In this document: positions 10,263 through 22,768 of the stretch, piece by piece
How positions within the stretch are numbered: position 1 is the stretch's first letter
Layout: the number at the start of each line of letters is the position of its first letter
Virus record (IMG/VR): IMGVR_UViG_3300046411_000168
Coordinates: 1 to 22,768 of that record
Direction: 5' to 3' (one strand)
Origin: a virus
DNA: 22,768 nucleotides
Notes under the pieces: model-generated
Databases searched by the model: none
What the model was told of the DNA's origin: nothing
The model's input: only the letters and a program-made list of their open reading frames with translations
Position numbers and translations under genes: made by a program

Positions 10263-10303
10263 AAAAAAATACCCCTAGTTATTAAGTTAGCTAGGGGTTT
10301 TTT
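10263..10303. terminator. Bidirectional intrinsic terminator between convergent blocks
   Basis: Stem arms at 10272-10281 and 10288-10297 (CCCCTAGTTA paired with TAGCTAGGGG, one G-U pair) enclose a six-base loop. An A7 tract lies on the left (10263-10269) and a T6 tract on the right (10298-10303), so a U-tract follows the hairpin whichever strand is read. It sits exactly between the end of the plus-strand late genes and the end of the minus-strand genes, where both transcripts must stop. The structure is read directly from the sequence. Confidence 0.92.
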
Positions 10304-10305
10304 AT

Positions 10306-10521
10306 TTACTTATCAGATTTATTTTCAATCTTTAGTTCAGACATTTCGTCTTTCACTTCTTTTATTTCTTTTTCATAATGCTCTTTTTGTTCTACAAGAT
10401 AATCTAATCTAGCTTGCAGTTTCTTTTGTTGAGCTTCCTGATACATTTTATCAGATACGACCATTACTCTTGGTCTCATTAAATCAAAATGATTATAGAA
10501 CATGTTGTCCAATAACATCAT
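10306..10521 (-). CDS. Small hypothetical coiled-coil protein
   Basis: A 71-residue protein. The first 25 residues are mixed and include a Met-Arg-Pro-Arg-Val-Met-Val-Val stretch. Residues 28-65 are a highly charged Lys/Glu helix likely to form a coiled coil. A very good AAAAGGAGA precedes the tandem ATG. It is the last gene of the minus-strand block, its stop abutting the shared terminator. I do not recognise a family. A 29-codon frame upstream ends across its ATG (ATGA), so it may be translationally coupled. Confidence 0.6.
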   Translation of the reverse strand: MMLLDNMFYNHFDLMRPRVMVVSDKMYQEAQQKKLQARLDYLVEQKEHYEKEIKEVKDEMSELKIENKSDK

Positions 10522-10634: not shown

Positions 10635-10715
10635 TTACTTTTCAGCACAAGCATATGAGTTGATTTCTAAACCTACAGAAATTTCTGCGATAATAGGTTT
10701 TTTCCATGCAGTCAT
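10635..10715 (-). CDS. pqqA: PqqA-like pyrroloquinoline quinone precursor peptide
   Basis: A 26-residue peptide that is almost entirely PqqA family. It has an N-terminal Trp-Lys-Lys-Pro (W4-P7), then Ala-Glu-Ile-x-Val-Gly (A10-G15), then Glu-Ile-Asn-Ser-Tyr (E17-Y21) and an Ala-Cys-Ala-Glu-Lys end. In known PqqA peptides the Glu and Tyr in the E-x-x-x-Y motif are cross-linked by the radical-SAM enzyme PqqE, with chaperone PqqD, and become the atoms of PQQ. The A-C-A-E type ending most resembles, from memory, alphaproteobacterial PqqA. A near-perfect ribosome site (AAGGAGAAA, inside the end of the holin gene) lies before the ATG, one base after the holin stop. Tandem stops TAA-TAG end it. No pqqB-F gene is visible, so host enzymes would be needed. 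It could support PQQ-dependent dehydrogenases during infection or act as a decoy substrate. Confidence 0.85.
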   Translation of the reverse strand: MTAWKKPIIAEISVGLEINSYACAEK

Positions 10716-10716
10716 A

Positions 10717-11088
10717 TTATTTCTCCTTCCATGTTTTAATTCCTTTCTCAGCACCTCTACTTATGATGTAGCCACCAATACCAATCTGTAATAAATCAAA
10801 CAGTTTCATAATAACTTCGTCTGATAAATTTTCAGGATGTATTCCAAACCAATACATAAATAAAAGTAACAAGAAAGATACCATAGTCAATGGTCTCCAA
10901 TTACGTTGTAACCAACCTTCACCTTTAGCTTCAGCAACCACTACAGATGCAGCAGCTTTTTCTATATCTGCTGAGTGCGTAACTAGTGCTTTGTTTAATT
11001 CTGATTGAGCCTTTGCTTGAGCAGCTTTATCAGGAATTATTCTATCAATTACTTTGCCCAAAATAGGTGCAATCATTGGTAATAACAT
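10717..11088 (-). CDS. Holin, 3-TM holin family type
   Basis: A 123-residue protein. Residues 1-15 are hydrophobic, followed by an Ile-Ile-Pro-Asp-Lys segment and a Lys/Ala/Glu-rich helix (about 20-55). The hallmark Gly-Trp-Leu-Gln-Arg-Asn-Trp-Arg-Pro-Leu-Thr-Met (58-69) leads into a membrane helix (about 68-84), and a second one lies near residues 98-112 before a basic tail. This matches the phage 3-TM holin family (GTA_holin_3TM-like), which forms the inner-membrane lesion that lets lysis proceed. A GGGAGAAAT lies just upstream of the ATG. The pqqA-like gene follows one base after the stop and uses a ribosome site inside this gene, so the two are coupled. No endolysin is adjacent. Confidence 0.75.
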   Translation of the reverse strand: MLLPMIAPILGKVIDRIIPDKAAQAKAQSELNKALVTHSADIEKAAASVVVAEAKGEGWLQRNWRPLTMVSFLLLLFMYWFGIHPENLSDEVIMKLFDLLQIGIGGYIISRGAEKGIKTWKEK

Positions 11089-11128: not shown

Positions 11129-11704
11129 TTAGAAAAAAAGAGTAATTTTATTATTTTTGTTCATCTTACATTTACCTTCAAGACATACTAAGTCATTGTT
11201 TTCAATAAGTTTTTCATAATACTTATGTAAAGGTTTAGTATAAAAATAAAAGTAACCTTCATACATAGGTATATAATATTTTTTAGTGCCAGGTCTATTA
11301 TAATAGAACAAAGCTGAACTTGATTCACCAGTATATATAGGTAAAACAAAGTAAGCATCTGCATTATGAGATGGTGTGTAGTAAGTCCCATTATTTTGTA
11401 TAATATCAAATGCAGGTGATGAATATGTATCTTCAAATGTTAAATCATCAACATATAAATTATTTAATACCTGTTTTACTTTAAATAATAATGATGGAAA
11501 CTTTTCAAATATGATAGGATTATTTGTCAAGCATTTATCTTTATAACTATCTTCATTATCTTTATCTTCTTTTCCTGAACCTAATGATAACCTGTTAGAA
11601 TAAAGTGACCAAGATTCTTTTAAATTTATAACTGATTTATAGATTGTTTGACAATCTTTATACTCTATAAAATCTTTAATCGTTATTGAAGAGAGTATTT
11701 TCAT
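11129..11704 (-). CDS. Hypothetical protein, possible Fe(II)/2-oxoglutarate oxygenase-like fold
   Basis: I place the start at ATG 11704, giving 191 residues, because an AAGGAA lies ten bases before it. The longer frame to 11815 would only add antisense-like residues inside the upstream gene. The overlap with the upstream stop is 29 bases. The protein shows an N-terminal helical part, then a Pro-Ala-Phe-Asp-Ile-Ile strand, a Ser-His-Asn-Ala-Asp segment, a Phe-Tyr-Tyr strand, and a Tyr-Phe-Tyr...Leu-His-Lys-Tyr-Tyr C-terminal region. This order of strand, His/Asp, and late His resembles double-stranded beta-helix oxygenases found beside phage sugar-transfer genes. However, the first motif is H-x-x-D rather than H-x-D and no distal Arg is obvious. 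I regard the fold as possible and the activity as unproven. Confidence 0.45.
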   Translation of the reverse strand: MKILSSITIKDFIEYKDCQTIYKSVINLKESWSLYSNRLSLGSGKEDKDNEDSYKDKCLTNNPIIFEKFPSLLFKVKQVLNNLYVDDLTFEDTYSSPAFDIIQNNGTYYTPSHNADAYFVLPIYTGESSSALFYYNRPGTKKYYIPMYEGYFYFYTKPLHKYYEKLIENNDLVCLEGKCKMNKNNKITLFF

Positions 11705-13949
11705 ATTTAGGATGTTCCTTTCTACCCCCAGTTTTCCACAACTCAGAAACAAGAGTACCCTCACCATATAGTTCCATGTGCATATCAACATCTTGTCTTT
11801 GAAATAACTTTTCACAATCTTGTGCCATAGCTAGTAGCTCACCTGTAGTCCAGAACTTCTTATTATTTGTGGTAACGTGTAAGTATTTACCTTTACCTGT
11901 TGAACTATCAACTGCATCTTTATCTTTAGGTTCATCCATTGAACAATCAAAACCATATAGCTTAAAGTTTCTAAATCCTAATGTATGTCCAACACTAATT
12001 GCTCTCATTGCTGCACAAGTACCACCAGTTAATAGAACTGTATCATCAGGTATACCTAAGTCTTTTGGTATAGTAACTTTATTATCTGTATTTTTTTCAA
12101 CAATAGCATCTGAGTAAGCATTCCATCCTACTATCTTTGCATTTTTATTTTTTAAATATTCTACAACTGAGGTATCAGTCATAGATGATACAAAAAATAT
12201 AGTCTCTTTAGGTATCTCTTTAAATAATTCTTTGCGAACAATACCATGTGTGCTTGTACCTTCAATAGGTCTAGGGTCAAGTATGTTACATGCCCAAGGA
12301 ACTATACCTTCTTTTAAAAGCATAGGTAATGAATGTTTAACACACATAATTTTATCTTTAGTTGATTTAAGATAGTCTCTGTAGTTTAAAAAAGAACTAC
12401 CACCTGATACTATATTAAGTATCTCTCCATGTGGTCTAGCTTTGATTAACCATTTATTAATTGACTGCACATTATTTTTTATATTGTTTCTAATATAATC
12501 AGTAGGCATACAGTCTTTTGGTTTAACAATTATTGGAACGTGATTGAAACTTTCAGGGAGTTTATCAAGATTAGATTTATGAAGAACAACAGCAAGATGA
12601 GTAACACCACCACCTGCCACTGGGTCATTAGATGGAAGAACTTTTTTGCGTAGCTTTTTATCAAGGGCATCAAATACTTTATTAGTTCCTTTATGTTCAT
12701 CAACAACTTCCTTTCCTTTGTCATCTTTAGTAAAGTAATCGTCAAACACAACAACAGGTAAATCTTTTGTCATATTATAATCGTGTTGAACAGTATCAAA
12801 ACTATGTCCACCATCAAGATAAGCTATATCAAAATCTTTTTGTTGTGTTAGTGTTACTTTAGTATCACCTTTAACTAATTTAAATTCAAAGTCTTTGTTC
12901 ATTTTATCTTTAACAAAAGTTTTAAATTCTTTTAGTCTATTATTAACTGCTTCATAAAGATTGTGTGGTTTAGTATTCATCTCAGTTGCATCAGTATATT
13001 CATCTGCATCTTCAAATAAATCATAACCTTCATAATAAACTTTATCTACGTTGTCAAAAGCTGCCAGTGCCATTTCAATAGCACGACCACCATTCCATGT
13101 ACCTGTCTCCAGTATTCTTGAAAACTTGTAATGTCTGATGACATCTGCCAGTTGCTTATACCTCTTTGGACCAACGACATCAGGTGTGGTCTTATCAGAT
13201 AACAAGTCCTTCCTATTACCTTTGAAATGCTCAAAGTAATCTGCCAAAGGAGAATTATTAAACGCATCTAAACCTCTCACGTCAGGTGTTAAACTATGTT
13301 TCTTTAAACCATGTGCACCATAGATATTAAATAATCTTTCAAAGATAAATCCATCATGCCATTCTCTATATGAAAGAACTTCGTGACTATTATAAAGACC
13401 TCTCATATCTCCTAGTAAATCAAGGGGTGGGATAGTATTAAGATTAAAAGCCATGAAAGATGTTTCACTATAGTCCACATCTTTCCTACCTAAGTGGACG
13501 AGTTCAGAACCTAGGGGAATGATTCCAAACAAGTCTTGTTTATTAACAGGCTTTCTAAGGATAATGTCAGCATCTAACCAAACTACCCACCCTACTTGTA
13601 CACTCTTTTCTACCAACTTGAAGGAGAAGTCAGTCAGAGCATACACTTTGTGACACCATTTAATGGCATCTAATCTCCAGTTATAAGGCATCTTACCACC
13701 TTCAGTACCATCATGAAGTTTCATTTCTTCACGATAGGTAATCATTTCGTCTACCTCATTAAGATTTCTAAATGTTATCTTTTCTGTTTTAGGAAACTCT
13801 TTTATCTGTTCATCAGTAAAGTCATGATAGTAAGCAGTTAAATGTAAATCATCAGCCATATATTTGACAACTGAGTCAATCATTTTCTTTGCATAAGTTT
13901 CCCATCCTTTAGGATTAAAGGACGTAACGATATTTATTGTGTCTTTCAT
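11676..13949 (-). CDS. Three-domain fusion: glycosyltransferase, methyltransferase-like, DUF115/MAF-like
   Basis: A 757-residue protein. Domain 1 (about 1-250) is a nucleotide-sugar transferase-like fold with a D-x-D motif (Asp126-Ala-Asp128 in Val-Val-Trp-Leu-Asp-Ala-Asp). Domain 2 (about 255-465) is class I methyltransferase-like, with Glu-Thr-Gly-Thr-Trp-Asn-Gly-Gly (281-288) as the cofactor loop and a Leu-Asp-Gly-Gly-His-Ser-Phe-Asp segment (378-385). Domain 3 (about 468-740) resembles the DUF115 / MAF_flag10 family: Ile-Val-Ser-Gly-Gly-Ser-Ser (513-519), Lys-His-Ser-Leu-Pro (538-542), Leu-Thr-Gly-Gly-Thr-Cys-Ala-Ala (640-647) and Leu-Tyr-Gly-Phe-Asp-Cys-Ser (664-670). Relatives of domain 3 act on glycans or glycosylated flagellin. 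The start follows the upstream stop by one base. Together the domains suggest synthesis or decoration of a glycan on virion, DNA or host surface; the target is unknown. Confidence 0.7.
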   Translation of the reverse strand: MKDTINIVTSFNPKGWETYAKKMIDSVVKYMADDLHLTAYYHDFTDEQIKEFPKTEKITFRNLNEVDEMITYREEMKLHDGTEGGKMPYNWRLDAIKWCHKVYALTDFSFKLVEKSVQVGWVVWLDADIILRKPVNKQDLFGIIPLGSELVHLGRKDVDYSETSFMAFNLNTIPPLDLLGDMRGLYNSHEVLSYREWHDGFIFERLFNIYGAHGLKKHSLTPDVRGLDAFNNSPLADYFEHFKGNRKDLLSDKTTPDVVGPKRYKQLADVIRHYKFSRILETGTWNGGRAIEMALAAFDNVDKVYYEGYDLFEDADEYTDATEMNTKPHNLYEAVNNRLKEFKTFVKDKMNKDFEFKLVKGDTKVTLTQQKDFDIAYLDGGHSFDTVQHDYNMTKDLPVVVFDDYFTKDDKGKEVVDEHKGTNKVFDALDKKLRKKVLPSNDPVAGGGVTHLAVVLHKSNLDKLPESFNHVPIIVKPKDCMPTDYIRNNIKNNVQSINKWLIKARPHGEILNIVSGGSSFLNYRDYLKSTKDKIMCVKHSLPMLLKEGIVPWACNILDPRPIEGTSTHGIVRKELFKEIPKETIFFVSSMTDTSVVEYLKNKNAKIVGWNAYSDAIVEKNTDNKVTIPKDLGIPDDTVLLTGGTCAAMRAISVGHTLGFRNFKLYGFDCSMDEPKDKDAVDSSTGKGKYLHVTTNNKKFWTTGELLAMAQDCEKLFQRQDVDMHMELYGEGTLVSELWKTGGRKEHPKYENTLFNND

Positions 13950-14825: not shown

Positions 14826-16739
14826 TTAAACTACTTCACATGCTCCTGCAGTACATGCAAGTTCTTTTGAAGAAGTAGTTGTATCTTCCTTTTCATAGTT
14901 AGTTAAGTCCATCCAATTAATATTTCTTGGAGTCTTAGCTAACCATTCCTCATAAGTTTTCTTATCAACTTCTTGATAAGGTGCTTGTTTATATGAATGG
15001 TCAGAGTGAGGTAAGAATGAAACACCACTCATCACATCAAAGTTTTCGTATACCCATGCACCAACTTGTAACCACTCTTCTTCTTTTACATAAACTGTAA
15101 TTGAAGGTTTATGTTCACACCAATGTAGCTGATACATCTTCCATATCTCTAGTTGTTCAATAGCAGACTTAGCATCTCTCATTACTGAACTCTTTGGAGA
15201 CTTCATAGGAAAATAAATAACCTTTGTATCATTAGGTTTCATTACGTCATCTTCACCATAAAAACCTTTATCCAACATCATGTCACACAATGGGTCTTTT
15301 TTATCTGCCCTAACAGTTCTAAGATAGTAAGGTGAATAACGTGGGTGAATACCTGAAGCTGAATCAACTAATTGTGATACAGTTCCTGAAGGTTTCACAC
15401 AAGTAATAGCAGTAGCTTGGTTAACTCCTAACATCTCTGCCCACTTTTTATTTGTTTTAATTGAATGTTCTTTAAGATTAATTAACATATCTTTTAAAAC
15501 AGTTTGATTATATATATCACCTGATAGAACTTCGTGGTCCATAATACCAGTTAATGAAACACCTAGTAATCTTTCTTCTTCAGTATTATCTTTCCATTGT
15601 TTAGTTAAGTATCTAAAGTCTGATAAAGTTGATTGAAGTGTACCAAAGATTGTAGCTATCTCTACCTTTTCTTTTAAAGTTTCTTCAGTATCATCAGGTC
15701 TAACAACTACTTCAGATAAATTACAGAATTGTTTATTTCGTAAAACTATTTCTGAACATGGATTAGTCCCAAAGTCAAAGTCACCATCTCTCCTACCTGA
15801 ACGTGTAGCCATCTTTTGTGATGCAACTCTATTAAATATACCACGTTCACCTGATTTAGAATCATAAAGAGATACCCACTCTTTCATAAATGTACCTATA
15901 TCAGGCTTCTCAGTATAAGCTACAGAGTTATTAGCATAACTTCTTTGTGGATTATTGTCCCACCATTGACCAGTCTTTGCATCTCTCATTCTAATATCTG
16001 AAAGATTAGACAAGCTAATTAAAGCTGAACGTCTTACACCACCACAAACAACTACGTCTGCAATCTTACATACAATATCGTGACACTCAATACTATTTAA
16101 TTTTCTACCTTTAGCTTTTTGAAATGTTTCAATACTAAATTTAAATAAATCTCTAAGTGGGTCAGGACCACTAGCACGTCCACCAAATGTTTTTAGTTTA
16201 GCACCTGCAGGTCTGACAAGAGACATATCAAATTGTGGTATCTGTCCTGCATAAAGCATAGCAATAAGTTCACGATAAGATTTTGCCCAACCTATTTTAC
16301 TGTCTCTTACTTTAATAACTGTTTCAGTTGTATGAAATTGTTCTGCAATCTCAGGTAGCTTATCAACGTATTGTCTTTCAACACTAAACCCTACACCAGT
16401 ACCACACATAAGTATGTACATAATCTCGTCAAAGGTTCTTACATTATCAATAGCAACATAAGAACAATTAAATCCTGCAACATTATCTTTATCAAGAGCA
16501 GCTCCTGCAGTCATTAATGCTCTCATAGAAGGCATAACTTTTAATGTAGTGATAGCATCAATCCATCTATCTTTTTCTTTCTTATCTAGTTTTTTAGATG
16601 TTAGTTTCTCATAACGTCCTTGCATATAACTAACATATCGTTCAACAGTTTCACTCCACGTTTCTCTTCTGTTTTCTTTTTCAATCCATCTCGCATAACG
16701 AGAGATGGCAATATAGTTTTGGTATTCAGTTGGTAACAT
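14826..16739 (-). CDS. nrdJ: Adenosylcobalamin-dependent (class II) ribonucleotide reductase, monomeric type
   Basis: A 637-residue protein that makes deoxyribonucleotides for phage DNA using coenzyme B12 to generate the active-site radical. The active-site set of the monomeric class II enzyme (Lactobacillus leichmannii type) is in place: Cys92 in Gly-Phe-Asn-Cys-Ser-Tyr and Cys339 in Phe-Cys-Asn-Leu as the redox pair, and Asn326, Cys328 and Glu330 in Asn-Pro-Cys-Ser-Glu-Ile. The C-terminal Cys629 and Cys634, five apart, can act as the re-reducing shuttle. It is about 100 residues shorter than the Lactobacillus enzyme. AGGGGAAA lies eight bases before the ATG. It sits between host-DNA-degrading and sugar-transfer genes, fitting a pathway from degraded host DNA and ribonucleotides to phage dNTPs. 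Confidence 0.92.
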   Translation of the reverse strand: MLPTEYQNYIAISRYARWIEKENRRETWSETVERYVSYMQGRYEKLTSKKLDKKEKDRWIDAITTLKVMPSMRALMTAGAALDKDNVAGFNCSYVAIDNVRTFDEIMYILMCGTGVGFSVERQYVDKLPEIAEQFHTTETVIKVRDSKIGWAKSYRELIAMLYAGQIPQFDMSLVRPAGAKLKTFGGRASGPDPLRDLFKFSIETFQKAKGRKLNSIECHDIVCKIADVVVCGGVRRSALISLSNLSDIRMRDAKTGQWWDNNPQRSYANNSVAYTEKPDIGTFMKEWVSLYDSKSGERGIFNRVASQKMATRSGRRDGDFDFGTNPCSEIVLRNKQFCNLSEVVVRPDDTEETLKEKVEIATIFGTLQSTLSDFRYLTKQWKDNTEEERLLGVSLTGIMDHEVLSGDIYNQTVLKDMLINLKEHSIKTNKKWAEMLGVNQATAITCVKPSGTVSQLVDSASGIHPRYSPYYLRTVRADKKDPLCDMMLDKGFYGEDDVMKPNDTKVIYFPMKSPKSSVMRDAKSAIEQLEIWKMYQLHWCEHKPSITVYVKEEEWLQVGAWVYENFDVMSGVSFLPHSDHSYKQAPYQEVDKKTYEEWLAKTPRNINWMDLTNYEKEDTTTSSKELACTAGACEVV

Positions 16740-16742
16740 AGT

Positions 16743-17123
16743 TTATTTCCCCTTTCTTTTTTTATTATGTTTTACTCTATCATAACTATCTTTATCTGTC
16801 AATATAGCATTTATATGTGTGCGAATAAAGTTAGTTCTTTTTGAAGACAATATATCCATAGCTACCTTTCGCATGTACGTAGGATTAATTTTAGCTGAAT
16901 GACATATATATTCAAAATCTTTTTTAGTTTGTCCAAAATTTGACGTGAACCACAATATAGCTTCACGTTTAATCTTTGAACTTTCCAAATCTCTTGTATC
17001 TTTTTGTGTGGCATCAAGTAAAGCTTGTAAAATAACTGCAAGGAATAGACTTCTCTCAGCACTTGTTGAGCTGATAAAATTAGTTTCTGTTTGTTGTAAA
17101 AAATCTTCATACTCTTTTTGCAT
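16743..17123 (-). CDS. Small hypothetical protein, possible helix-turn-helix/DNA-binding
   Basis: I start the gene at ATG 17123 (126 residues). A GTG at 17150 would add nine residues and lengthen the overlap with the endonuclease gene to 44 bases. Neither start has a strong ribosome site, so the choice is uncertain. The protein is helical, with a pattern Lys-Arg-Glu-Ala-x-x-Trp-Phe...Phe-x-x-x-Cys-x-x-Ala-x-x-x-Pro-x-x-x-Arg (about residues 53-84) that recurs in small phage proteins of unknown role and resembles a DNA-binding helix-turn-helix region. The tail is very basic (Lys/Arg-rich). It lies between endonuclease I and the RNR, four bases from the latter. The DNA-binding role is inferred. 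Confidence 0.5.
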   Translation of the reverse strand: MQKEYEDFLQQTETNFISSTSAERSLFLAVILQALLDATQKDTRDLESSKIKREAILWFTSNFGQTKKDFEYICHSAKINPTYMRKVAMDILSSKRTNFIRTHINAILTDKDSYDRVKHNKKRKGK

Positions 17124-17481
17124 TATACCATTGTTTAGGAATACCATCACTTATTTTACAGTATTCAAAGTTATGCTTATCACACCATCCTGCATAAGTC
17201 ATAGTGCCACCCTTGTTTAGTTTTTTATTTGGATTATCAAAAGCAAATCTAATTATAATATTAGGATTAGATTTTCTAAAAAACAAATGTTTCTTTCTCA
17301 TCTCAATAGTTAATCTACCTTTAACTTCTATATAAGAACCATTAGGTAACAAGAAGTCAGGGCAATAAGTTTTATTTTCAAACCATTCATAATTATATTT
17401 ATTAGGTTCATACTTAACTTTTATTTTTTTATCTTTAAAAAATTTATAAACTTTTTCTTCTGAACCACTTCTAAACTTCAT
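17107..17481 (-). CDS. T7 endonuclease I-like Holliday-junction resolvase
   Basis: A 124-residue homologue of T7 gene 3. The sequence order matches well: Phe-Arg-Ser-Gly-Ser-Glu-Glu-Lys-Val near the start (catalytic Glu at 8), Tyr-Glu, then Pro-Asp-Phe-Leu-Leu-Pro-Asn-Gly-x-Tyr-Ile-Glu-Val-Lys-Gly with Asp42, Glu52 and Lys54 as the metal-binding triad, and a Lys-Gly-x-x-x-Thr-Tyr...Trp-Cys C-terminal part ending Ile-Pro-x-x-Trp. The enzyme resolves branched DNA before packaging and helps break down the host chromosome. A GAGGAA precedes the ATG. It overlaps the membrane-protein gene upstream by four bases, and its 3' end overlaps the next gene. Confidence 0.92.
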   Translation of the reverse strand: MKFRSGSEEKVYKFFKDKKIKVKYEPNKYNYEWFENKTYCPDFLLPNGSYIEVKGRLTIEMRKKHLFFRKSNPNIIIRFAFDNPNKKLNKGGTMTYAGWCDKHNFEYCKISDGIPKQWYNAKRV

Positions 17482-17702
17482 TTAATATTCCTCATATGAA
17501 AATAGTTTCGTATATGTAGGCAAGTAAATACTATACACATAATTAACATATAATAACTATCAGATAGTACTGACCATGTAATCCATATTATATTTGAAAC
17601 CATCCCATACAGAGGTGCATAGTTATCTTTATTACCATACACCCACACAGTAACAACTGCACTAATTGCAGCTAGTAATTCAAATACACTAACCAATGTC
17701 AT
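17478..17702 (-). CDS. Small 3-TM membrane protein, PnuC-like half
   Basis: A 74-residue protein made almost entirely of three hydrophobic helices (about 5-23, 29-47 and 48-66) with a Tyr-Gly-Asn-Lys-Asp turn after the first and a basic end. The middle helix Val-Ser-Asn-Ile-Ile-Trp-Ile-Thr-Trp-x-x-Leu resembles a repeat of PnuC-type nicotinamide-nucleoside transporters, which have about twice the number of helices. It may form oligomers to build a full channel, or it may be unrelated. It overlaps the exonuclease gene by 14 bases and endonuclease I by four, so it is co-translated with nucleotide-metabolism genes, which fits a nucleoside or cofactor transport role. This is an inference. Confidence 0.5.
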   Translation of the reverse strand: MTLVSVFELLAAISAVVTVWVYGNKDNYAPLYGMVSNIIWITWSVLSDSYYMLIMCIVFTCLHIRNYFHMRNIK

Positions 17703-18537
17703 CTACTGCTACCTCTTGTACATCAGGTGTTTTAGCTACCACAGTCAAGTATCTTGGTCCATTCGCATAGACAAATTTTCTAAGTCCTTTCCCACCATTA
17801 GCATCTTTCCAACAATCAACTTTATAAGCACAGTAGGAACAGCCAACGTCAAGTTTACGATTACCACTAACACCATCTGCAATATCGTCATAACACTTGC
17901 TAGGAATTGTATCACTTGCGACAACATTTTTAAGATGTAAGACCCTATCTTTTGCATTTATCATCTCCATTTGATGGACAGGCATAAGACATATCCTGCC
18001 ACTTTGTTTATCTATAGCAAGAAAGGCACCACCCTCTTTACCTTGTGCTTCAGAATAAGCTGATAGTTGAGGTATATAACCAAAAGGGTCATCTTTTAAC
18101 AATGAACGATTAGAAAACTTTTTAAATGAGTAAGCACTAGCAGATTTACAATCTGTAATTACACCATCAATCTCACAGTCTTGGTGTCCTAACACTCCCT
18201 CAATCTCCAATTCTTTTTGTTCATTCTTAACTTCATGCCCTGCAGTTTTTGCAAGAAGTAAAAGTAATTCTTCAAGCATATATCCATAAGCAAATTTTAT
18301 TTTTGCCCATGCAGGTAACTTTTCTTTTTTTATATCTCTTGATTGATACCATACCTGTCTATCAGGTTTACCAATCTGAGACATTCTCAAATTATTATTC
18401 TCAGAATATTTGTCAAATAACGACATGATATTTATTTTGATATTCTCTGCGAATGATTCAACATCTTTCATTGATGGTTGTTTACCTTCAGAGATAGTAT
18501 CGTACATGTCTTTAACTAGAGTATCAATTTTTTTCAT
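17689..18537 (-). CDS. RecB/Cas4-like PD-(D/E)XK exonuclease with Cys cluster
   Basis: A 282-residue nuclease. The PD-(D/E)XK core is visible: Glu89 in a helix, Gly-His-Gln-Asp-Cys-Glu-Ile-Asp (Asp124), Thr-Asp-Cys-Lys (Asp129 and Lys131), then the RecB-family Gln-x-x-x-Tyr motif (Gln157, Tyr161). Cys233, Cys236 and Cys242 near the C-terminus, with Cys215 as a possible fourth ligand, suggest a Cas4/AddB-like iron-sulfur cluster. It fills the place of T7 gp6 exonuclease, which degrades host DNA and removes RNA primers. No ribosome-binding site precedes the ATG: the transcript leading into it is the terminator hairpin and U-tract located 5 bases before. Expression must rely on read-through or on an unusual initiation. 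Confidence 0.8.
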   Translation of the reverse strand: MKKIDTLVKDMYDTISEGKQPSMKDVESFAENIKINIMSLFDKYSENNNLRMSQIGKPDRQVWYQSRDIKKEKLPAWAKIKFAYGYMLEELLLLLAKTAGHEVKNEQKELEIEGVLGHQDCEIDGVITDCKSASAYSFKKFSNRSLLKDDPFGYIPQLSAYSEAQGKEGGAFLAIDKQSGRICLMPVHQMEMINAKDRVLHLKNVVASDTIPSKCYDDIADGVSGNRKLDVGCSYCAYKVDCWKDANGGKGLRKFVYANGPRYLTVVAKTPDVQEVAVDDIG

Positions 18538-18542
18538 TAGAC

Positions 18543-18574
18543 AAAAAAAGGGACGTAGTTATTAGCCACGTCCC
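18543..18574 (-). terminator. Intrinsic terminator/attenuator after the ssDNA-binding protein gene
   Basis: On the minus strand a GGGACGT / ACGTCCC stem with an 11-base loop (18574-18550) is followed directly by seven Ts (18549-18543). It begins 15 bases after the ssDNA-binding protein stop and ends five bases before the exonuclease ATG. It should cut transcription sharply after the highly needed ssDNA-binding protein and let a fraction read into the downstream nuclease and RNR genes. Confidence 0.88.
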
Positions 18575-18589
18575 ACTATTTTATTATTG

Positions 18590-19057
18590 TTAAGCTACGT
18601 TTGTAGCAAAGTCATTTGATTCATCACCTTCTTTAGGGATTTCCTGGAAAGCTTCGTCAACTTCTTTGTCAACATAAGGCACTAAATCAACAACTTGAAT
18701 GGCTTGTAGTTCAGCACTTTTACCTGAGTTACCTCCCCACTTCCAATCGTACATTCTATAAAGAACATTTACGTTAGACCCATTACCAATAAGAACCCCT
18801 TCCAAAGGACGTTTCATATTGTCCTTGACTTCAGGTGCTCTATTTTGAGTACCATCTTTGCGAGTAGCTTTTCTCTTAATAGTAACAAAGTCTCCTCTTT
18901 CGTCTCCTTTATTTTTAATAGTTAGTCCATCAGCTTCAGCTTTCTTTTTGTTTTCAGCATCAACTGATACATCTATACTATACACTCCACCTTCATCAAA
19001 CTTAGTGCTAGGTGCTACAACTTGTGCCCAATAAGATTTTCCATTTATTACAGTCAT
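18590..19057 (-). CDS. Single-stranded DNA-binding protein (gp2.5-like, OB fold)
   Basis: A 155-residue protein of the size and place of T7 gp2.5. It shows beta-strand segments with aromatic residues suited to ssDNA stacking (Tyr9 and Trp10, Tyr26, Phe57, Tyr100, Tyr103, Trp105, Trp107), a basic middle (Lys61-Arg66, Lys68) and an acidic C-terminal tail (about residues 130-149) like those that recruit polymerase and helicase. The family in marine T7-like phages is usually annotated as ssDNA-binding protein; I assign it by layout and position rather than by an unmistakable motif. AAGGAG precedes the ATG. It has its own sigma70-like promoter upstream and a terminator downstream, so it can be made in larger amounts than its neighbours. 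Confidence 0.75.
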   Translation of the reverse strand: MTVINGKSYWAQVVAPSTKFDEGGVYSIDVSVDAENKKKAEADGLTIKNKGDERGDFVTIKRKATRKDGTQNRAPEVKDNMKRPLEGVLIGNGSNVNVLYRMYDWKWGGNSGKSAELQAIQVVDLVPYVDKEVDEAFQEIPKEGDESNDFATNVA

Positions 19058-19109
19058 TTTCGTACTCCTTTCATAATTGTCATTTGAATATGACTTATTT
19101 TAAATACTA

Positions 19110-19138
19110 ATTATATTTCATTATAGTAATATTGTCAA
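19110..19138 (-). promoter_or_regulatory. Consensus sigma70 promoter for the ssDNA-binding protein gene
   Basis: On the minus strand TTGACA (19138-19133) and TATAAT (19115-19110) are separated by exactly 17 bases, matching the bacterial housekeeping consensus at all twelve positions. Transcription would begin near 19103, leaving a leader of about 45 bases with an AAGGAG before the ATG at 19057. It lies in the only sizeable gap of the replication block (19058-19167). A T7-type phage using host RNA polymerase here is consistent with the absence of a phage RNA polymerase gene in the window. Confidence 0.88.
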
Positions 19139-19167
19139 GAACTTTTTACATTTATTTCTCCTTTCAA

Positions 19168-20868
19168 TTAGTGTGTCTCTGCCCAACTCAAACCAGTCTT
19201 AAACTCTGCATCCAGTGGGCATTTCAGGTTTAACTCTTCAGTAGTATTTTTAATAGCAGTCTTTACAATCCTACCCATTTCTTCTACATCTTTTTTATGT
19301 ACTTCAAATTGATACTCATCATGTATTGAAGCTACAAGTTTAGAATCAATACCTGATTTATTAATTAAGTTTATCATTTGTCTTAACCAAACTTTACAAG
19401 CTATTGCTCCTGCACCTTGAACAATAGTATTAACTGCTTTGTGTGGTGAACGTACATTAAATAGTCTACCATCTAAACCCCTTACCTTACCCATATTCGC
19501 AGCTTCTTCTACTTGGTTTCTAAAGTTTTTTAATTTAGGAAGTTCAGATAAAAATTTATCAATAAGTTTTTTACCAACTGCCATATCTTTTGAACCAACT
19601 ATTTGACCAATCTTCTTTGCACCTGCTCCAAATAAAAAGGCATAGATAAAAGTTTTAGCTTGGTCTCTATTTGTAAGTCCTGCCATATTCATATTTCTTG
19701 TATGAATATCTCCATTTAATATTTCATTTGTGTACTCAGGTGTATCAATATAATGTGCTAACATTCTTAACTCTAGTCCTGAAGCATCAGTACCAAAGAT
19801 AACGTGAGTATCAGGTTTGTCAGTTGTCCATACTTCTCTACACTCTTTACCATAAGGTGAATAAACTGCAGGTATCTGAGCCATATTTGGCGAGTGATGA
19901 CTCATTCTACCTGATACACAACGTAAAGTAAGAACACGTCCATGAACTCTACCAGTAGTTTCATTCACAACATCTAACCATGAAGTTATTTGTGACGTTC
20001 TCTTTTTTAATAATAAATATTCAGAAATTAATTTAGCTTCAGCTATGTTATCTATCTTTGACAGTACACCTTCATCTACAATAGGTGAACCTTTATCAGT
20101 AAACTTATTTGGTTTCCAACCTAACTTCATAAGTCGTTCAGCTATTTGTTTACGAGACGCAAGATTAAATTCTTGATAACTAACTTTAGTAAAAGGTTTG
20201 CCCTTCACATATCCACGAGATTTATTATTTACTTTAGGAATAAATTCTTCCTCAATCTTTAATGGTGGAAAAGTTTTATGTACTTCTTTTTCTAACTGTT
20301 CAGCTTTATCTTCAAGCATAGCATATAAGTTACTTGCTTTTTGTTGGTCTAAATAAAAACCATTGTTCTCTTGTTTAGTTATAATTGAACGTATGTCATG
20401 CTCAAGTCTTAAAGATTTTTTAGAAAAGTTTTTACCTTCAACAATTAATCTTTTATAAACTTGGTGAGTTACATCAACATCTCTTTTACAATACGTTAAC
20501 ATCTCTTGACTAAACTGTGAGAAGTTATTGAACTCAATTTTATTTAAACCAATACGTTCACCCCAGGAATCAAGTGAATGACCTTTATCTCTTTCAGGAT
20601 TGTACAACTGTGACATAATTAATGTATCAGTTATTTGTCCAATGGTTATTTTTGTATTGAGTAATCTATTTAGAACTGGTGCGTCAAATGAAACACCATT
20701 ATGCATTATGATTTCTTTACAATAATTGTTAATAAAGTTAGGTAGTTTGGTGTAACAATCTTCACCTACAAATGAATAGGTTTTATTTTCATCAATGTTT
20801 TTAGCGACAACACAATGAATATTCTTTGCATCAAGTGAATCAGTTTCAATGTCTAATACTGTTCTCAT
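19168..20868 (-). CDS. T7-type DNA polymerase (family A)
   Basis: A 566-residue replicative polymerase with a proofreading exonuclease. The 3'-5' exonuclease residues are Asp6 and Glu8 (Asp-Ile-Glu-Thr), Asp62 in a Asn-Gly-x-x-Phe-Asp segment and the Tyr126-x-x-x-Asp130 motif. Polymerase motif A is Asp361 in Gly-Thr-Asp-Ala-Ser-Gly-Leu-Glu-Leu-Arg. Motif B is Arg401-x-x-x-Lys405-x-x-x-Tyr409...Gly. Motif C is His516-Asp517-Glu518. Tyr409 occupies the position of E. coli Phe762, as in T7 (Tyr526). T7 polymerase has about 704 residues; much of the shortfall seems to lie between residues 190 and 235, where the T7 enzyme carries its thioredoxin-binding insertion, and near the fingers and C-terminal region. 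It overlaps the upstream small gene by four bases. Confidence 0.95.
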   Translation of the reverse strand: MRTVLDIETDSLDAKNIHCVVAKNIDENKTYSFVGEDCYTKLPNFINNYCKEIIMHNGVSFDAPVLNRLLNTKITIGQITDTLIMSQLYNPERDKGHSLDSWGERIGLNKIEFNNFSQFSQEMLTYCKRDVDVTHQVYKRLIVEGKNFSKKSLRLEHDIRSIITKQENNGFYLDQQKASNLYAMLEDKAEQLEKEVHKTFPPLKIEEEFIPKVNNKSRGYVKGKPFTKVSYQEFNLASRKQIAERLMKLGWKPNKFTDKGSPIVDEGVLSKIDNIAEAKLISEYLLLKKRTSQITSWLDVVNETTGRVHGRVLTLRCVSGRMSHHSPNMAQIPAVYSPYGKECREVWTTDKPDTHVIFGTDASGLELRMLAHYIDTPEYTNEILNGDIHTRNMNMAGLTNRDQAKTFIYAFLFGAGAKKIGQIVGSKDMAVGKKLIDKFLSELPKLKNFRNQVEEAANMGKVRGLDGRLFNVRSPHKAVNTIVQGAGAIACKVWLRQMINLINKSGIDSKLVASIHDEYQFEVHKKDVEEMGRIVKTAIKNTTEELNLKCPLDAEFKTGLSWAETH

Positions 20869-21278
20869 TTAACCTGAATATAATCTTTTATGGTTTGTAT
20901 GGCAAATAGTTTTTGTAAATTAATTAGGTACATCTTTGAAGCATTATGGTCTCCACCACTTACTGAAACTTTTCTGTCTAAAGAATTAATAATCTTTTTT
21001 AGAGTGTCAGTTTTAAATACTAATGTGGCATAAACATCTTCACCCACACAAAGATTATGAAACCAGTAGTCAGCTTCAGTTGCATTGATACCTGAAGGTT
21101 TACCATAACTCTCATATTCAATCGCAATGTTACCAGTCTTTTGCCATACATCACGTTCAGATTTTACTTCAATCTTTTTATCCTGAAGCATATCCTTTAT
21201 GGCATCTTCTCTGACCTGACCATAAGCTAAGTCAAGGTCAAACTTTTTTCTATTATCCTTGGTTGGTTTCATTGTCAT
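20865..21278 (-). CDS. Small PD-(D/E)XK-like nuclease-fold protein of replication module
   Basis: A 137-residue protein. After a basic start comes Phe-Asp-Leu-Asp-x-x-x-Gly-x-x-x-Glu (Asp14, Asp16, Glu24), a Lys-Ile-Glu-Val-Lys-Ser-Glu segment (Glu37, Lys39), a Thr-Gly-Asn-Ile-Ala-Ile-Glu strand (Glu54), and Ser-Gly-Ile-Asn-Ala-Thr-Glu-Ala-Asp-Tyr-Trp. This arrangement resembles the PD-(D/E)XK fold of small phage and archaeal resolvase-like nucleases. It lies between the helicase and polymerase genes, overlapping the first by 26 bases and the second by four, so it probably acts at the replication fork or on branched DNA. ATG 21272 is a second possible start. Activity is inferred from the motif pattern only. 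Confidence 0.6.
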   Translation of the reverse strand: MTMKPTKDNRKKFDLDLAYGQVREDAIKDMLQDKKIEVKSERDVWQKTGNIAIEYESYGKPSGINATEADYWFHNLCVGEDVYATLVFKTDTLKKIINSLDRKVSVSGGDHNASKMYLINLQKLFAIQTIKDYIQVK

Positions 21279-22768
21279 TATTTTTTTCCTTGAAAGGGTT
21301 TTCTATCTCAGTCATGCGACCATTTTCTTTTGACCACAAAAGATAAGAAGCAATACCAGTAATACCTGCGTATCTATTCTTCAATACCCTAATAATTGAA
21401 GTGTTAGCTGATACTTCATCTTCTTCTTGTTGGTTTCTTTCCATACCAATTACTGCATCAGATAATTGTGCAATGGCATGTGAACCTCTCAAATGAGAAA
21501 GAGAAACTTGCTTACCTTCCTCGTGTCCCTTATCATTATCAAGTCTTCTTAAATGTGAAACTAAAAACATTCCTACTTTTGTTTCGTGACAAAGACCTCT
21601 GAGTTTAGTCATTAATAAGTCAATAGCTTTTCTCTCATTATTATCTTCACGAGCTGACATAATCAAACTAAGATGGTCAATGAATATCCATTTACAATCA
21701 CAACCTTTAGCCATAAAACGTATGCGAGCCATAATTTGTTCATCACTTAAAGAGCCAAATGAATTATTATAGATAGTTAATCTGTCACTATCAAACTCAT
21801 CAACAACTTTGTTTAAGTCTTCAATGTTTTCTTTTTCCCATACCTCATCAAGATGTAATTGTTTATTTGTGTGTATACCCAATACACCTTGTAAAGTTCT
21901 TTCTGCATCTTCTTCAAGAAATATTAAACCAATATTATCTTGAGTTGTTTTCCAAAAATGATAGACTAGTTCTCGCATGAATGATGACTTACCCATACCA
22001 GTCCCTGAAGTAATCGTTACAAGTTCCCCAGTCCTTGCACCATAAAGCTTTTCATTTAGTCCTTCAAAAGGATAAGGACAAGTCTTTCTATCTTTCTTTT
22101 TCCAAAGATTATCTCTTATATCTGATACTCTAAGTATACCTTCAGGTGTATGTGACTTTGCATTCCACCAACACTGAACAAACTTTTGTCTTTGTCCTGC
22201 CCTAAGATATTCATTAGCATCTTTTAATTCCATATTAACAATCTTGCATTTGTTGGGTGAAAATATTTCTGCTACTTTATTTGCAGTTGCCTTACCTATA
22301 TCGTCATTGTCAAAACAAATAATTATATTTTCAAAACTATCTAGGTATTCAAAGTTCTGTTTACAATCTCTAACTGCTGACTGAACTCCATTCTTAATTG
22401 ATACTGATGCCCATTTAGAACCCATCATTTCATAGGCAGACATAGCATCACACTCACCCTCACATATGGTAATGTACTTTTGACCACCACTAAATAACTG
22501 TTGACCAAATAATTGTGATAATCCAAAGTTACCTTGAGCAGTAAATTCTTTTGGTAAAGTTCTTATCTTATTTGCTACGTGTTTTTTATCTGCACTATAA
22601 TAAGGGTAAACGTGTTTGGTTATCATACCATTGTTAGTTAGAGTTGTTACTCCATACTTACTGGCAGTTTCTTGGGATATACCTCTATCTTTTAATGATG
22701 TTGTTTGACCAACATATAAATCGTTATTCATAGTATTGTTCATTGGTGTTGCTACTCCTTCAGCTTTT
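21253..22768 (-). CDS. T7 gene 4-type primase-helicase (5' end at or beyond window edge)
   Basis: At least 496 residues from ATG 22743, and the frame stays open upstream to the window edge. The visible protein begins at the Leu-x-x-Arg-Gly-Ile-Ser block that follows the zinc domain in T7 gp4. The TOPRIM primase domain contains Cys-Glu-Gly-Glu-Cys-Asp (94-99) and Asp-Asn-Asp-Asp-x-Gly-Lys (145-151). The helicase has Walker A Gly-Thr-Gly-Met-Gly-Lys-Ser (247-253), Walker B Ile-Phe-Ile-Asp-His, the Ser-His-Leu-Arg sensor and Arg-Gly-Ser-x-x-Ile-x-x-Leu-Ser-Asp-x-x-x-x-x-Glu-Arg-Asn. It unwinds DNA and primes lagging strands for the polymerase encoded downstream. An AAGGAG lies eleven bases before ATG 22743, so this ATG is either the real start or an internal start like that of T7 gp4B. 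Confidence 0.93.
   Translation of the reverse strand, partial: KAEGVATPMNNTMNNDLYVGQTTSLKDRGISQETASKYGVTTLTNNGMITKHVYPYYSADKKHVANKIRTLPKEFTAQGNFGLSQLFGQQLFSGGQKYITICEGECDAMSAYEMMGSKWASVSIKNGVQSAVRDCKQNFEYLDSFENIIICFDNDDIGKATANKVAEIFSPNKCKIVNMELKDANEYLRAGQRQKFVQCWWNAKSHTPEGILRVSDIRDNLWKKKDRKTCPYPFEGLNEKLYGARTGELVTITSGTGMGKSSFMRELVYHFWKTTQDNIGLIFLEEDAERTLQGVLGIHTNKQLHLDEVWEKENIEDLNKVVDEFDSDRLTIYNNSFGSLSDEQIMARIRFMAKGCDCKWIFIDHLSLIMSAREDNNERKAIDLLMTKLRGLCHETKVGMFLVSHLRRLDNDKGHEEGKQVSLSHLRGSHAIAQLSDAVIGMERNQQEEDEVSANTSIIRVLKNRYAGITGIASYLLWSKENGRMTEIENPFKEKNNDNETNQG

Follow-up and report, generated by a model that had tools for sequence, protein, structure and literature searches.

A virus fragment from IMG/VR, 22,768 bases long and hereafter called the window, carries pqqA, the gene for the precursor peptide of the cofactor PQQ, without the remainder of the PQQ pathway, and such lone pqqA genes recur in many different marine phages. 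We consider it probable that phage pqqA is a working auxiliary metabolic gene, one that supplies the PqqD and PqqE of the host with a substrate and not with an enzyme. Genes lying beyond the window were judged from longer relatives of up to 57 kb. The features of the locus are as follows.

10635..10715, minus strand: pqqA, 26 codons, encoding the PQQ precursor peptide MTAWKKPIIAEISVGLEINSYACAEK, with cross-link residues Glu17 and Tyr21
10723..10727, minus strand: AGGAG ribosome-binding site of pqqA, 7 nt upstream of its ATG and overlapping the last holin codons
10717..11088, minus strand: 123-aa holin, immediately 5' of pqqA (PF11351 GTA_holin_3TM, phrog_3427)
10306..10521, minus strand: optional 71-aa coiled-coil-like ORF downstream of pqqA, without a confident family match
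10271..10308, no strand assigned: hairpin terminator with T-run, lying where the two strands converge (plus-strand prediction)
14826..22743, minus strand: replication and nucleotide block, upstream of the holin and pqqA, which sit at its far end on the same strand

The first-pass annotation had placed a PqqA-encoding gene at 10635-10715, and the gene is found there on the minus strand, with its ATG at 10715-10713, its stop at 10637-10635 and a product of 26 aa; a plus-strand reading of the same bases was ruled out by the stops it contains. The peptide MTAWKKPIIAEISVGLEINSYACAEK scored well above the curated cut-offs of both PqqA profiles, reaching 31.9 bits with Pfam PF08042 (cut-off 21.1, E 1.3e-7, profile positions 1-19 of 19) and 38.7 bits with NCBIfam TIGR02107 (cut-off 20, E 6.3e-10, positions 1-21 of 21). 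Because both profiles were matched above cut-off over their full length, the resemblance is beyond chance and, judged by its sequence, the gene encodes a genuine PqqA. The annotation had named a sub-threshold profile score as grounds for refutation, and these scores do not refute it. The leader has the PqqA-type Trp and Pro, as W4 and P7, which are unchanged across 13 nucleotide versions of the gene. The Glu-x3-Tyr pair of PqqA, the part that becomes PQQ, corresponds to Glu17 and Tyr21, and cross-linking of this pair by PqqE with PqqD is predicted for the phage peptide. The annotation was also right about how closely the gene follows the holin and about its ribosome site: the holin ORF ends at 10717, which leaves 1 base between its stop and the ATG at 10715, and the AGGAG lies in a region that reads AAGGAGAAATAAT or AAGGAAAAATAAT in aligned relatives. 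The holin itself matched PF11351 GTA_holin_3TM at 39.9 bits (cut-off 24.8) and the holin family phrog_3427 with an E of 5e-25.

Read leftward from 22743, the minus strand holds replication and nucleotide genes, transferase-like genes, the holin, pqqA, the 71-aa ORF and the hairpin terminator. The block at 14826..22743 encodes a primase/helicase, a DNA polymerase, an ssDNA-binding protein, a Cas4-like exonuclease, endonuclease I and a ribonucleotide reductase, and virion genes, including those for a 1202-aa virion protein and a DNA ejection protein, occupy the plus strand at the left. A host-type metabolic gene is thereby embedded among phage genes, with a holin upstream, the replication block on the same strand and virion genes on the other, and it closes the replication/nucleotide strand instead of lying among the virion genes. 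The minus-strand replication block is likely transcribed as a single transcript, and the terminator probably acts in both directions. An RNA element over the 3' end of pqqA was considered, where a hairpin folds (z -2.35), and was dropped, because four relatives of the window (L009, L020, L023 and L024) do not share the sequence downstream. Elsewhere in the window, positions 11676-13949 encode a 757-aa protein that joins an unassigned N-terminal region to Methyltransf_24 and an MptE-like domain, a fusion unusual for a phage.

The lineage of the window was represented by 25 close loci gathered by a holin search of IMG/VR, and pqqA occupies the identical position in 24 of them, one of which is cut by a contig end. 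The remaining relative, L021 (56.7 kb), presents a clean empty site in which the hairpin terminator stands directly 3' of the holin. Three arrangements can be aligned, namely holin-terminator in L021, holin-pqqA-terminator in the four relatives named above, which keep pqqA and lack the 71-aa ORF, and holin-pqqA-71-aa ORF-terminator in the window and others. Thus, pqqA is separable from the 71-aa gene; the alignment is unpolarised and does not distinguish gain of pqqA from loss. The 24 sequences comprise 13 distinct nucleotide versions of the gene. Across codons 11-26, the 16-residue core, synonymous changes occur at five codons and amino-acid changes at none (pN 0, pS ~0.21), while the leader codons vary freely except for W4 and P7 (leader pN/pS 1.4). 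By this measure the PqqA core is under purifying selection in the phage lineage. Gene exchange with host copies could contribute to the pattern; phage and host core DNA are at most 90% identical, though the core peptide is identical. The last five pqqA codons (GCT TGT GCT GAA AAG, 10638-10652) are without synonymous variation in the 13 versions, and the codons before them do vary.

One could suppose that pqqA is a neutral passenger (moron), a copy from host DNA that came to lie beside a terminator and has no role in the phage. It is a single-gene insert in a compact gap and is missing from one close relative, as a passenger might be. A neutral copy would not be expected, however, to go without amino-acid change in its core while synonymous changes accumulated, to be kept in 24 of 25 relatives, or to appear in several different phage contexts (see below), and we regard this explanation as very improbable.

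The first-pass annotation had also stated that no further pqq genes accompany pqqA, and this held: PqqB, PqqC and PqqD were not found in the window, nor did profile scans find a radical SAM protein among its large ORFs. The same pattern extends to other pqqA-bearing viruses. Exactly one pqqA is present in 49 of 50 viral records; a profile search of these 50, which did not include the window, found no PqqE, and no PQQ_2 propeller (PQQ dehydrogenase) was found in 50 pqqA-bearing records. PqqB, PqqC and PqqD were likewise not found in 40 viral records including the window; the PqqC search was run without a positive control, and the model used for it does recognise a host PqqC. Most viral records are fragments, and only in the longest (55-60 kb) is the absence of the pathway firm. 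Linkage to pqqBCDE, which is usual for PqqA but not defining, is absent from the window and its longer relatives. Orphan pqqA copies are common in cells, where the pathway is encoded elsewhere in the genome (also PMC4109929).

A phage equipped with PqqA and none of the other pathway proteins might use it as a decoy, such that excess peptide saturates the PqqD and PqqE of the host, PQQ output falls and a host process is shut down. The annotation had offered this role beside that of raising PQQ, and had named variation at Glu17 or Tyr21 as evidence against a PqqA function. Both residues are invariant in related phages sampled without the motif: across three phage groups including the window's lineage, 88/88 sequences retain the cross-linked Glu and 87/87 the Tyr, those missing being cut by contig ends. 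An inhibitor needs only to bind, and its reactive residues would be expected to be lost or altered in some lineages, but selection has preserved the core in full, the cross-linked Glu and Tyr as well as the C-terminal residues. Moreover, the predicted hosts themselves have several pqqA copies, which suggests that more PqqA is tolerated. Because selection covers the full core and not leader contacts alone, the pattern of conservation speaks for a working substrate rather than a decoy. We consider the decoy role improbable, though sequence would not distinguish a decoy that keeps the native residues.

To estimate spread, IMG/VR was scanned with a DNA pattern of the PqqA core, and the matches were judged by eye for a PqqA reading. 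At least 119 places matched, and all of those listed except L219 read as PqqA, so that at least 118 are PqqA-bearing. Among the matches listed, neighbour clustering places pqqA in at least five gene contexts. In two phage groups it follows a holin (phrog_3427), and elsewhere it is flanked by portal or terminase genes and GroES or by an exonuclease and a DNA helicase loader, precedes a NifU-like gene, or follows a phrog_2524 protein. These contexts were defined by gene neighbours and are not a count of independent gains. Two further phage groups were sampled through neighbour genes and a loose profile, which avoids motif bias, and the peptide is present in 41/80 and 24/80 of their loci, where absences include contigs that end too early. 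A tblastn search of 50,697 GenBank phages with three PqqA peptides gave no match; such short queries have limited reach, and a diverged PqqA could escape them.

That pqqA adjoins a holin in two phage groups raises the alternative that the peptide retains the PqqA shape yet serves a different purpose, such as lysis timing or signalling. The other contexts, in which pqqA adjoins portal/GroES, exonuclease/helicase-loader or NifU-like genes, do not fit a task tied to the holin, and selection retains exactly the residues used in PQQ synthesis. Of the explanations considered, we judge this one the least probable.

Several neighbours of pqqA are worth recording in their own right. A NifU-like Fe-S assembly gene (phrog_8429) directly follows pqqA in one phage group (L174, L195, L218, L221, L223, L237, L285 and L286). 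In many relatives of the window it borders the far side of the pqqA cassette on the opposite strand, as in L004-L006, L009-L012, L016, L017, L019, L020 and L022-L025, though not in the window. The pairing may be functional, PqqE being an Fe-S radical SAM enzyme. In another large phage group, made up of L226, L220 and some 45 further related contigs, pqqA lies between portal/terminase genes and a GroES-like gene and encodes a peptide of the NCYACAE[I/L] type. The contigs L060 and L091, which were binned in MAGs of Maricaulis and Flavobacteriaceae, come from phages: nearly all of their proteins have matches at about 91-100% in L278 and L215, two viral contigs that bear pqqA.

A strict PqqA pattern was searched for in 84,980 species genomes and returned 116 stretches. 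The exact EISVGLEINSYACAEK ending of the phage peptide occurs in small (0.9-2 Mb) marine alphaproteobacterial genomes and, apart from evident phage or mis-binned contigs, is confined among the 116 stretches to HIMB59-type records. One candidate host genome bears the title HIMB59 (MED-G10), and its order takes in 27 of the 28 candidates; HIMB59 is the AEGEAN-169 clade (PMC10308909). Since pqqA was found in just 54 of 289 alphaproteobacterial genomes sampled, its carriage is informative about the host. All 28 candidates have pqqA, in 1-5 copies each, of which one lies in a pqq operon and the others are solitary, with unrelated neighbours such as a sodium symporter or typA. PqqB and PqqC come after the operon copy, PqqE is over cut-off in 22/28, and one PQQ alcohol dehydrogenase over cut-off lies near the operon in 15/16 candidates. 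The annotation had asked whether the host has the pathway and a PQQ-dependent enzyme, and the group predicted here has both. This quinoprotein alcohol dehydrogenase matches TIGR03075 at ~670 bits and contains WDYDGVNE with an Asp-x-Asp metal motif, which is typical of XoxF (lanthanide-type methanol dehydrogenase). PQQ is unmentioned in the main text of two AEGEAN-169/HIMB59 papers.

From these matches, the host of the phage is probably a HIMB59/AEGEAN-169 alphaproteobacterium. It is possible, if unlikely, that the host is instead another PQQ-using marine alphaproteobacterium, in which case the supply role would stand. The isolate phages with the nearest DNA polymerases are the Pelagibacter phages HTVC115P, 104P and 103P, at 50-52%, and a search of 32 HIMB59-order genomes with the 1202-aa virion protein, a weak search made without a positive control, found no phage of the window's lineage. 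The near-confinement of the EISVGLEINSYACAEK ending to HIMB59-type records weighs against a different host.

PqqA is consumed stoichiometrically, at one peptide per PQQ. If pqqA is a substrate-supplying gene, the phage would make extra PqqA during infection, the PqqD and PqqE of the host would cross-link its Glu17 to Tyr21, and a host protease, PqqB and PqqC would complete the cofactor. The added PQQ would sustain the quinoprotein alcohol dehydrogenase of the host, XoxF-like in the predicted HIMB59/AEGEAN-169 host, and this enzyme would keep passing electrons to respiration while host gene expression declines, from which the phage would presumably benefit. That PqqA supply can matter is indicated by a cell-free extract that converted added PqqA to PQQ, as cited in PMC9851590, and by a 29% rise in PQQ from extra pqqAB (PMC7936290). 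The patchy presence of pqqA (24/25, 41/80 and 24/80 loci, some of them contig-cut) was counted toward the supply role.

Several points count against substrate supply. In Acetobacter, the 29% rise from extra pqqAB compares with about eightfold for pqqABCDE (PMC7936290), and therefore PqqA is one limit among others; enzymes rather than PqqA may be limiting there. Lying beside the holin, pqqA could be expressed late, with little time to profit. The host, too, is a predicted one: no phage of the lineage was found in the 32 HIMB59-order genomes, and the polymerase is nearest to those of Pelagibacter phages, at ~50%.

A broader proposal, on which we are evenly divided, is that supplying a ribosomally made cofactor precursor without its enzymes is a general strategy that marine phages of PQQ-using alphaproteobacteria have reached repeatedly, raising the PQQ of their hosts by substrate flooding, and that pqqA dosage is contested between phages and multi-copy hosts. 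If phage pqqA does supply substrate, a phage that brings only a consumed cofactor peptide would represent a different way to steer metabolism, and PQQ-linked alcohol oxidation would limit infection in abundant, hardly cultured ocean bacteria. The gene also gives a sequence handle on HIMB59/AEGEAN-169 phages. Gene callers readily overlook genes of 24-26 codons, and counts of the trait may therefore be too low.

One earlier report, from 2020, describes PqqA in a phage, the Lake Baikal population VP_266 (PMC7678222), and a list of viral phosphorus-cycle genes includes pqqA (PMC13188868); phage pqqA is much more widespread than the single reported case. A literature search that excluded subscription papers found no report of lone pqqA across marine phage groups or of a HIMB59 link. 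The breadth, the lone-gene pattern and the likely HIMB59 link thus appear to be new, while PqqA in a phage as such is not.

Like the phages described here, VP_266 carries pqqA and is predicted to infect PQQ-using bacteria, and support of methanol oxidation was proposed for it (PMC7678222). VP_266 is a single case, however, a T4-like phage of Methylophilaceae from fresh water, with methanol dehydrogenase among its genes, whereas the present phages are marine, have several gene layouts and another predicted host class, and include no PQQ dehydrogenase in 50 records. The window's nearest isolate by DNA polymerase (52%), Pelagibacter phage HTVC115P (MN698247), has a similar polymerase, endonuclease and ribonucleotide-reductase block, but no PqqA motif was found in its genome. 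The phage peptide shares with cellular PqqA (PF08042/TIGR02107) its size, W-x-x-P leader, Gly-x-Glu-x3-Tyr core and above-cut-off scores, and differs in that its gene adjoins a holin without pqqBCDE. Where demand for PQQ is high, bacteria maintain several pqqA copies for one enzyme set: Methylophilaceae have 3-12 (PMC4109929), and a PQQ-producing methylotroph has five copies (PMC9851590). The orphan copies of Methylophilaceae are, as here, extra genes scattered singly beside a single pqqBCDE set, but they are chromosomal, whereas here the extra copy is brought by a phage. As host-type metabolic genes among phage genes, mazG, phoH and ribonucleotide reductase are comparable to phage pqqA. Known auxiliary metabolic genes mostly encode enzymes, and these three encode enzymes or regulators, whereas pqqA encodes a substrate that is consumed, a RiPP precursor.
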